Source: an uncultured candidatus Porisulfidus sp. (GTDB taxonomy: Bacteria > Pseudomonadota > Gammaproteobacteria > Poriferisulfidales > Poriferisulfidaceae). From it: DNA of 64,000 nucleotides. This document shows, piece after piece, positions 33,023-35,778 of this stretch. The number at the start of each line of letters is the position of its first letter. Positions within the stretch are counted from its first letter, which is position 1. A program made the translations under genes and the position numbers. The notes under the pieces are model-generated. The model was not told the origin of the DNA and did not search any database. It saw only the letters and a program-made list of their open reading frames with translations. The DNA lies in contig OY288106.1 of assembly GCA_958431155.1 (NCBI GenBank), positions 629,937-693,936 of the forward strand, given 5' to 3'.

Positions 33023-34786
33023 TCAGGCCTGTTCGCCGGAGGCCGGAATCGGGACTTCCACCCGCACGGTTACGATATCCGTGTCATAGTATTGCTGGTG
33101 GTAGACCGAGGACGCCAAATGCCGCAGCAGCCGCAAGGAGACCTCGCGCTCGACTGAAGCTGAAATGGATTGCTTGCCAAGCAAGGCGATCCGATCCTGA
33201 AGGTTCTCTTCTCCCGTCGCGGCAACGAATTCGAGGACGGCTCCGTCGTCTTCCCGGCGCGCGGTCAGGAGCAGGCGGCGCTCCTCGCCTACCCCGCCGC
33301 TTTGCTTCTCGTGGAGCGTCAGCAAGGTCTCTTCGGTGGCGGCATAAAGGCGATTCGCCATCGCCAGATCCCAGCCGTGTCCGGATGTGAACTTGTGGAG
33401 GAATTCCTCGATCTTTGGCAGAATTGAAACGTCGAGAACCACCTCGAGCTGGTGGCGGCGGGGTTTCGTCAATTCCATGAACAGGGTCATGAAGATGGCT
33501 ACGAGGCCCCCAGCCGTAATCCCGTTGCTCAGAAGGCCCCCCGCGAATTCAGAAACATATTCGGGGTAGATCCATCCGTTCTGGAGTCCCACTCCGATCC
33601 AGAATGAAATTCCAACGATCAACCCCGTCCGATAGTCGATGCCATCCTGAATCGTCACTCTCATGCCGACCACGAAAAGCAATGACAGCAAAACGCCGAT
33701 GTAAGCCCCGGCAACCGGACCGGGTATCGCCAAAATGACGGCAAGCGCCTTGGGGAGAAACGCCAGAACAAGGAAAACCACCCCGAGGGCAACCCCGACC
33801 TTGCGGGACCCGACCCCGGTCAGCTCGGCAACGGAGATGCTGGTCGAATAGGTCGTGTTCGGCACGGTTCCCAAAAGACCGGACAACAGGTTGCCCACTC
33901 CATCCGCTGCTACCGTACCTTGAACCGCGCGGAAATCCACTGCCCGAGGACGGCGCCAGGCGACGCGCTGAATGGCGACGGAGTCCCCGACGGTCTCCAC
34001 GGCCCCAACCAAGGTCACGAACACGAATGCCGGCAAAAGTGTCCAGAATACTGGTCCGAAGTTAAGGTCGTAGCCTGGCCATCCGGCCTCCGGGAAGCCC
34101 AGCCACGAAGCTTCGACAACGCGGCTCACTTCATAAAGCCCGGAGAACCCGGCCACGACCGAACCGACGACGACTCCGATGACCGGAGCCCAGAGACGCA
34201 ATATGCCGGTCGCCTTCAAGGCAATGCCACCAATGGCCAGCAGGGTCGCACTGGCACTCAGTGCGGCGGCCGACGTGGGGGTTCCTTCGGGCACGGATGT
34301 CAGCAAGTCAAAGACGATCGGCATGACGGTGACCGGCACCAGCATGATGACCGTACCCGCCACGGCCGGGGTCAGGATCCTCCGGAACAGCGAAAGCCGT
34401 GCGGAAAGCGCGAACTGGAAGAACGACGAGAGGATGACCAGAGTCGCCAGCATAGCCGGCCCTCCTTCCGCGATGGCGGTGATACAGATCGCGATGAACG
34501 CCCCGGACGGACCCATGGCGAGCGTGTAACCGGCACCGATCCGGCCGACCCGGACCGCCTGCAGGATCGTGGTAACGCCGCTGACGGCGACGGCGGCAAA
34601 TACAATCCAAGACAGGAAGATTTCGGTTCCTCCGGCCGCTCGGGCGACAATCGCCGGCGTCAGGACGATGCCGGAGATGCAGAGGATGGCCAGTTGCAGG
34701 CCAAGGCCGAACGCGAGGGGCGTCGGCGGGTTTTCGTCAGGCTGGTAGCGGACGCTCGTGCGTCGGACAGAACTTTCGGTGTCTAT
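33023..34786 (-). CDS. NCS2-family nucleobase permease with ATPase-like tail; probable AUA start
   Basis: Membrane transporter of the xanthine/uracil (NCS2) family. From the proposed start the protein is 587 residues. The conserved first helix (LAFGLGLQLAILCISGIVLTP) and second segment lie upstream of the first ATG (34516), and the frame has no ATG, GTG or TTG between the upstream stop (34817-34819) and 34516. An ATA at 34784-34786, 4 bases after GGGAGGGGG, is the best start. The core contains GNLLSGLLGTVPNTTYSTSI. The last ~150 residues (from about RRHQLEVVLDVSI) form an extra domain resembling a degenerate histidine-kinase/RsbW-type ATPase (NRLYAATEETLLTL, DTDIVTVRVEV). Substrate unknown; it could also be a start-codon mutant or sequencing error. 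Confidence 0.75.
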   Translation of the reverse strand: MDTESSVRRTSVRYQPDENPPTPLAFGLGLQLAILCISGIVLTPAIVARAAGGTEIFLSWIVFAAVAVSGVTTILQAVRVGRIGAGYTLAMGPSGAFIAICITAIAEGGPAMLATLVILSSFFQFALSARLSLFRRILTPAVAGTVIMLVPVTVMPIVFDLLTSVPEGTPTSAAALSASATLLAIGGIALKATGILRLWAPVIGVVVGSVVAGFSGLYEVSRVVEASWLGFPEAGWPGYDLNFGPVFWTLLPAFVFVTLVGAVETVGDSVAIQRVAWRRPRAVDFRAVQGTVAADGVGNLLSGLLGTVPNTTYSTSISVAELTGVGSRKVGVALGVVFLVLAFLPKALAVILAIPGPVAGAYIGVLLSLLFVVGMRVTIQDGIDYRTGLIVGISFWIGVGLQNGWIYPEYVSEFAGGLLSNGITAGGLVAIFMTLFMELTKPRRHQLEVVLDVSILPKIEEFLHKFTSGHGWDLAMANRLYAATEETLLTLHEKQSGGVGEERRLLLTARREDDGAVLEFVAATGEENLQDRIALLGKQSISASVEREVSLRLLRHLASSVYHQQYYDTDIVTVRVEVPIPASGEQA

Positions 34787-34818
34787 GGCGCCCCCTCCCG
34801 TCCCTGATTCACGAAACT

Positions 34819-34846
34819 ACCGGGAGGCAAGCCATGGCCTCCCGGT
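34819..34846 (-). promoter_or_regulatory. Leader hairpin before NCS2 gene, can compete for its ribosome-binding site
   Basis: A perfect 10-bp stem (34837-34846 with 34819-34828) has an 8-base loop and lies 32 bases upstream of the NCS2 start. Its distal arm contains CCTCCCG on the transcript, which is complementary both to CGGGAGG in its own proximal arm (34838-34844) and to an identical CGGGAGG (34794-34800) that forms the NCS2 ribosome-binding site. The T-run is poor, so it may act as a translational switch rather than a terminator. This is inference. Confidence 0.5.
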
Positions 34847-34868
34847 CTGTCTTCCGCAGCCAAAACAC

Positions 34869-34900
34869 GGATTTTCGCTCCTGTATCGGAGCAAAAATCC
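34869..34900 (-). terminator. Rho-independent terminator of the alpha/beta hydrolase gene
   Basis: A 13-bp stem with one wobble pair (GGATTTTCGCTCC at 34869-34881 with GGAGCAAAAATCC at 34888-34900) and a 6-base loop begins inside the hydrolase stop codon. On the minus strand it is followed by GTGTTTTGG. Confidence 0.65.
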
Positions 34901-35778
34901 TAGCTTTTCAGAGTGACGCCATCCACGTTGGCCCATTCGGTCACGAAGTCGTCGATTAGATCGACAACTGCGTCCGGACGGTCTTCCAGCACATAGTGTC
35001 CGGCCCGTTCGATGATCTCGAACCGCGTCGGCCCCGAGATGGCATCTTTCAGCCGGCGTCCCGATTCGACCGGCATCCAGGCATCGTGCAACGCCCAGCA
35101 CACCATGGTCGGGCAGGTGATCTTGCTGTGATCCACGCTCATGGTCTCTTCGTTGCTCGGCTCCGAGCAAACATGGATCAGCGACTTGAAGCCGGTGAAT
35201 CCCGGTCCGCGGGCCCAGAACGAGAGATAGTTTTCCTTGACGTTCTTGTCGCTGAACGCGATCTTGTCATGGCTGCCCATGAGCAGGAGCCCGTGAAAGC
35301 CTGCTGCCGCCTGAGCCATGGCCTGTCCCAGAACCTCGTCCGGGGCGCCGACCAAGCCATTGAAGGCTTCCACTTCCAGCACCGGCCAGTAGTCCCAAGC
35401 AACCGGATTGATCAGGACCAGCCGGCTGATGTGGTCGACGTACTTCGAGGCGAAGATCTGGCAGGCTCCGCCGCCGTGATCGTGGCCAACCAGGATGACG
35501 TTCCCTGTGAGGCCCAGCCCTTCAATCACCGCTTTGATGGCCTCGGCCTGATTCGTCAGGGAGTGAGTGAATTTGTCGAGAGGCATGCTCGACTGACCGT
35601 AGCCAACCATGTCCATTGCATAGGTCTGGTAGCGGTCGGACAAACTTTCCTGCGCATGGCGCCACAGCCGGCTGTTTGTCGGAATTCCGTGCACCATCAG
35701 CAGTGCCGGACCGCTGTCGCCCTTCTGCTCGATATGGATTTCGAGATCCAAGCCTCCAACATTGATCGGTTGTTTCAT
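34900..35778 (-). CDS. Alpha/beta hydrolase with Asp nucleophile (epoxide hydrolase / dehalogenase-like)
   Basis: Cytoplasmic alpha/beta-fold hydrolase of 292 residues. The oxyanion motif HGIPTNSRLW and nucleophile elbow VGHDHGGG, with Asp where lipases have Ser, point to the epoxide hydrolase / haloalkane or haloacetate dehalogenase group. The acid (ALHDAWMPVESG) and histidine (ERAGHYVLEDRP) complete the triad. AAGGAGGA sits 7 bases before the ATG, one of the strongest ribosome-binding sites in the window. A hairpin terminator starts in the stop codon. It is divergent from the J-domain gene. The substrate is not predictable. Confidence 0.85.
   Translation of the reverse strand: MKQPINVGGLDLEIHIEQKGDSGPALLMVHGIPTNSRLWRHAQESLSDRYQTYAMDMVGYGQSSMPLDKFTHSLTNQAEAIKAVIEGLGLTGNVILVGHDHGGGACQIFASKYVDHISRLVLINPVAWDYWPVLEVEAFNGLVGAPDEVLGQAMAQAAAGFHGLLLMGSHDKIAFSDKNVKENYLSFWARGPGFTGFKSLIHVCSEPSNEETMSVDHSKITCPTMVCWALHDAWMPVESGRRLKDAISGPTRFEIIERAGHYVLEDRPDAVVDLIDDFVTEWANVDGVTLKS

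Follow-up and report, generated by a model that had tools for sequence, protein, structure and literature searches.

The NCS2-type permease gene on the minus strand of the window (the whole 64,000-nucleotide stretch of DNA analysed here, from a bacterial symbiont of sponges) appears to be initiated with fMet at a near-cognate AUA codon, giving low and probably IF3-sensitive synthesis, a reading to which we assign a probability of about 0.88 from sequence comparison. The position of the putative start, the ATA at 34786-34784, is strongly supported by the alignments described below. The features of the locus, in window coordinates, are as follows.

33023..34786, minus: NCS2/NAT-type permease CDS read from the putative AUA; 587 codons plus stop; PF00860 match at 5.1e-46; unassigned C-terminal domain
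34514..34516, minus: first canonical in-frame start, an ATG, inside the conserved protein (sequence)
34553..34723, minus: transmembrane helices 1 and 2 (residues 22-78), ahead of any canonical start (model, pLDDT about 88-98)
34784..34786, minus: putative AUA start codon (sequence; ATA in four of five genus members)
34791..34799, minus: Shine-Dalgarno GGGAGGGGG, core GGAGG 34794-34798, 7 nt ahead of the ATA; duplex energy with the anti-Shine-Dalgarno -11.2 kcal/mol
34817..34819, minus: in-frame stop TAG bounding the frame upstream (sequence)
34819..34846, minus: leader hairpin 2 (CCGGGAGGCC...GCCTCCCGG), immediately ahead of the Shine-Dalgarno; its conservation is confined to the genus
34869..34900, minus: leader hairpin 1, resembling a terminator, where the upstream alpha/beta-hydrolase gene ends; conserved in the genus

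The open permease frame runs for 597 codons from the TAG at 34819-34817 to a stop at 33023, and its first ATG, GTG or TTG is the ATG at 34516-34514, 90 codons past the ATA. The original prediction had placed no canonical initiator between the upstream stop and this ATG, and a full in-frame codon listing agrees; the range it gave, 34516-34800, is the correct stretch, the gene proper being 33023-34786. With NTG making up 7.2% of the codons of this ORF, the chance of 90 NTG-free codons is ~0.001. When ATH codons are counted together with NTG, the ATA at 34786-34784 is followed by none before 34699, whilst from the CTG at 34699 (codon 29, within helix 1) onward CTG, ATC and ATT codons occur in frame. 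No canonical in-frame start is able to yield the conserved protein.

The product is a putative nucleobase transporter of the NCS2 family. The match to Pfam PF00860 (Xan_ur_permease) scored 157.6 bits against a gathering score of 27, and covered residues 38-411 of the stop-to-stop frame and positions 6-383 of the 389 in the profile. The NCBIfam profiles TIGR00801 (ncs2) and TIGR03173 (pbuX) matched under their curated cut-offs, the latter with 192.1 bits against 414.15, which does not support a place in the PbuX xanthine permease subfamily. Foldseek returned UapA (5i6c, 2.1e-17), UraA (7.7e-15) and SVCT1, which identifies the NAT/NCS2 fold. In the AlphaFold model (built from 33 sequences; mean pLDDT 82) the first helices span residues 22-50 and 55-78 and so precede residue 91, encoded by the ATG at 34516, as had been proposed for the first helices from the sequence; a start at that ATG would lose both. 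Gene finders limited to ATG, GTG and TTG would therefore shorten the transporter by 90 residues.

The last ~145 residues (33026-33460, minus) gave no Pfam match. This C-terminal domain carries the motifs EETLLTL, LEFVAATGEEN and LLRHLASSVxHQQY, conserved across phyla, and is modelled as a mixture of helix and strand, partly at low confidence; from pattern alone we would guess at a Bergerat-type ATPase-like fold. In one sister genome (G072; L140/L141) the permease falls into two frames close to this domain, the match breaking at about residue 474, and the gene there appears broken by frameshift, error or decay.

Where coding constraint begins was assessed in a set of five genus members, comprising the window and four relatives found at 88-92% identity (G001, G002, G003 and G004). 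The genus comprises Candidatus Porisulfidus and MAGs, one member being Candidatus Porisulfidus sp. TsSOB from a sponge and the others gammaproteobacterial MAGs. In codons -10 to -1 the differences were distributed 24, 16 and 17 over the three codon positions, with third-position bias absent and 4 synonymous versus 34 non-synonymous changes, whilst in codons 10-28 they were distributed 14, 6 and 42, with 39 synonymous versus 10 non-synonymous. Codons 1-9 show little conservation and an intermediate substitution pattern. The coding signature, comprising third-position changes and the conserved SVRYQPDENPP, extends to within ~10 codons of the ATA and is absent ahead of it. When the sister clade was included, codons 8-28 showed 82% amino-acid identity, with 187 third-position differences versus 44 and 32 at the other two positions, and this region is conserved among relatives of many phyla. 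By itself, constraint appears to bracket the start between about -10 and +9. The substitution pattern indicates that coding begins at or just after the ATA, where the window has no other initiator-like codon; since codons 1-9 are poorly conserved, assignment of the exact start codon relies on AUH conservation and Shine-Dalgarno spacing.

These data bear directly on two ways in which the AUA might be dispensed with. Initiation further downstream, at the CTG at 34699 or the ATG at 34516, would yield a shorter protein and could draw on the in-frame CTG, ATC and ATT codons present from 34699 on, but codons 8-28 lie ahead of that CTG and are strongly constrained, both among genus members and in comparison with the sister clade, and use of the ATG would remove helices 1 and 2, making this reading highly improbable. 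A pseudogene whose start has been lost would account for the missing canonical initiator, yet the long frame is open in all five genus members and codons 100-429 carry 885 synonymous versus 195 non-synonymous codon differences between them, so that decay is scarcely credible.

The aligned start codon is ATA in the window, G001, G003 and G004, and ATG in G002. In the sister clade it is ATC in four members and ATA in one, with no in-frame NTG start in any: L013, L014 and L015 (76% identity) have ATC and lack an NTG start, their frame being closed by a stop three codons upstream, and a search of the sister family added G073 (ATA) and G072 (ATC). The original prediction of AUA initiation had called for comparison of this codon in relatives and had taken ATG there as evidence against it; ATG was found in one relative only, G002, and the tree makes it a nested reversion. 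The mixture of ATA and ATG within the genus is as expected of a true start codon drifting among AUN. A sequencing or assembly error at 34784 has a negligible likelihood, for whilst one G to A change would account for the window alone, ATA is present in three further independently assembled species and ATC or ATA occupies the same site in five relatives.

A wider comparison retrieved 80 relatives, the majority of which carry ATG at the aligned site or close to it (TTG in L018, GTG in L022). Among 73 relatives with a recognisable N-terminal motif, the 30 codons ahead of this motif were free of NTG in eight only, and likewise in the window, all in one clade. Across the ten clade members the aligned site holds AUH in nine and AUG in one; its first two bases are AT in all ten, the third being A, C or G, and among codons -8 to +7 this codon alone has invariant first two bases. 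Codon -1 is AUC or AUU in eight of the ten and GCC in the window and G004, so that its use as a start is possible outside these two, whilst Shine-Dalgarno spacing favours position 0. One Arenicellales sequence (L025, near 4995), with TTG then ATA at the start site and a weak Shine-Dalgarno, was left unscored.

The ATA was also proposed to be well placed for ribosome binding, and the GGAGG at 34798-34794 does lie 7 nt ahead of it. A GAGG or GGAGG core is found 7-8 nt upstream of the start codon in all ten clade members. In four genus members this stretch is predicted to pair very strongly with the anti-Shine-Dalgarno (-11.2 to -11.4 kcal/mol), whilst predicted pairing is moderate for G004 (-8.4) and the sister clade (-6 to -7). 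The window's Shine-Dalgarno is stronger than ~99% of 416 first-NTG sites from sampled genome stretches, a rank that is approximate as this set contains wrong starts.

Spacing also bears on the idea that translation begins at a canonical codon upstream in another frame and then shifts into the permease frame. Four sister-clade sequences (L013, L014, L015 and L138) do have an out-of-frame NTG at -7 or -13, opening an ORF of 5-7 codons that overlaps the AUH codon; at -7, the ORF of five codons is opened by ATG in L015 and L138 and by TTG in L013 and L014. However, the NTG at -7 lies directly against the GAGG core, too near for normal initiation, all three frames of the window and of G003 are free of NTG between -20 and +30, and no shared slippery site was seen, leaving such a frameshift very unlikely. 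Two related candidates were rejected: a leader peptide or frameshift from the window's short ORFs upstream of the AUA, as these lack conservation in the genus, and translational coupling through an ATAG overlap (GTG 34812 to TAG), as that ORF is not preserved in relatives.

The leader itself (34819-34900, minus) contains two strong hairpins with a fold z-score of -5.2, kept in all five genus members and persisting even in G001, whose sequence just upstream differs. A two-sided change was found in one leader pair only, in hairpin 1. The 3' arm of hairpin 2 (GCCTCCCGG) could pair with the Shine-Dalgarno too. Hairpin 2 was not evident by eye in the leaders of the sister clade, and sequestering of the Shine-Dalgarno by it was set aside on this ground, on that of the lone two-sided change, and because the hairpins may be features of the upstream gene's end. 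An Rfam search of 34500-35000 found no known RNA element, and we claim no riboswitch.

In the maximum-likelihood tree the NTG-lacking sequences and G002 form one clade of ten (bootstrap 99, SH-aLRT 98). Start-codon states on the tree are explained by two changes, a count that is itself directionless; since canonical starts surround the clade, the simplest history would be that AUG was lost once, that AUA and AUC replaced one another, and that AUG returned once, in G002. On this evidence the rare weak start appears to be an old inherited trait. Between the genus and the sister lineages the permease is 76% identical versus 65% for IF3, and outside the genus the subfamily, at 51-76% identity, is found in MAGs of many phyla (L009-L088), those assigned including Latescibacterota, Spirochaetota, Chloroflexi, Acidobacteriota and Alphaproteobacteria. 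Because of this excess identity and the spread over phyla, the gene may have moved horizontally together with its start, which is suggestive only as MAG binning errors are possible. The spread of the subfamily suggests either exchange within host-associated communities or such binning errors.

Within the genome the case is rare. A survey of genome stretches shared with G002 and G003, covering 174 genes validated by substitution pattern, returned the permease as the sole convincing instance of coding ahead of the first canonical start. Four other ORFs that the survey flagged were rejected by inspection: 3779 has an upstream canonical start in a relative and no third-position excess, 2979 has an ATG start (MATIN...) behind a conserved leader and is probably S12, and 1061 and 1803 are low-complexity shadow frames. 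Outside this survey, the infC gene (L089 in this genome; L129-L132) shows GGAGG, 7 nt and AUC in all five genus members, and GGAG then AUU in three sister genomes (L133-L135), with an in-frame TTG, lying two codons further upstream in the genus and five in the sister clade, that abuts or overlaps the Shine-Dalgarno core. As for infC elsewhere, its start is probably AUC in all five genus members, whilst the three sister genomes probably use AUU, and these lineages thus seem to use AUH starts.

In the mechanism that we propose, the unusually strong Shine-Dalgarno 7 nt upstream would position the ribosome at the AUA (34786-34784), where initiator fMet-tRNA would pair with the A and U and tolerate the third-position A, giving a predicted N-terminus of fMet-Asp-Thr-Glu. 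Low, IF3-dependent output would be expected because IF3 discriminates against near-cognate codons, and output should rise as IF3 activity falls, as for infC, where the AUH start against which IF3 discriminates is used for autoregulation (PMC5472188). In vitro, rising IF3 disfavours weaker third-position pairs whilst Watson-Crick pairing is required at the first two positions (PMC10158994), and the invariant AT and free third base of the permease start match these rules. In S. aureus in poor medium the AUA and AUU starts of ccpN, citZ and cvfC1 give ~10% of AUG output, and extended Shine-Dalgarno sequences are reported at non-canonical start sites (PMC13009471); a weak start limiting permease expression would fit such published values from other genes. 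Translation at the AUA, fMet insertion, low expression and modulation by IF3 level are what we infer for the permease.

The AUH codon may be an inherited regulatory part of the permease subfamily, through which the uptake of nucleobases would follow IF3 activity, and so growth or the state of the ribosomes, alongside infC, with AUA and AUC freely exchanged and the start perhaps having moved between lineages with the gene, a proposal we hold tentatively. Drift with compensation is a serious rival to selection for low output, and quite plausible if short of even odds: the AUA/AUC start would be real and without regulatory role, a mildly harmful mutation of AUG having been fixed in small symbiont populations, compensated by the Shine-Dalgarno and kept by inertia. 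The small genomes of these host-associated MAGs, the strong Shine-Dalgarno of the genus and the return of G002 to AUG with no visible Shine-Dalgarno change all point this way. Yet only one of the 174 checked genes is affected, so there is no general decay of starts, and AUH has survived in two lineages at about 76% protein identity, though one base change restores AUG. Switches from AUG to AUU, AUA or AUC are moreover extremely rare, with one to AUU among 61,358 ancestral AUG starts (PMC5622118).

A transporter whose start stays non-AUG across two lineages offers a natural setting in which to ask if selection favours weak starts as a means of capping or tuning expression. To our knowledge, few bacterial genes have conserved AUH starts, and most of these encode regulators or translation factors. 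No report of a membrane transporter with a conserved AUH start, with AUA and AUC exchanged between clades, was found in the literature searched; conserved AUH starts are already known, and what is new is a membrane transporter among them and the exchange of AUA and AUC between clades.

The closest parallel is infC, with its AUU, AUC or AUA start (PMC5472188, PMC13009471), which like the permease combines a conserved AUH subject to turnover, a strong Shine-Dalgarno and expected discrimination by IF3; infC encodes the discriminating factor and so closes a feedback loop, whereas for the permease no such feedback on IF3 is obvious. The S. aureus/B. subtilis genes ccpN (AUA), citZ (AUA) and cvfC1 (AUU) are non-IF3 genes with an AUH start and an extended Shine-Dalgarno, conserved for ccpN and cvfC1 (PMC13009471), and ccpN and citZ share AUA with the window gene. 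They are, however, Firmicutes regulators or enzymes proven by ribosome profiling, whilst the window gene encodes a gammaproteobacterial membrane transporter known from sequence. Streptomyces sigR likewise has a conserved non-canonical start (GUC, with GUU as the minority form in some species) after a strong Shine-Dalgarno, but differs in its codon, in being a regulator gene and in that its repression by IF3 was shown experimentally (PMC5472188). The AUU start of Yersinia pestis RcsD-Hpt is also an AUH start with its own ribosome-binding site, though an internal one in a frameshifted gene and tested by mutation (PMC10191623). As for the product, the NCS2/NAT permeases UapA, UraA and PbuX share its fold and sequence family, whereas the window's subfamily differs from them in its extra C-terminal domain of ~145 residues.
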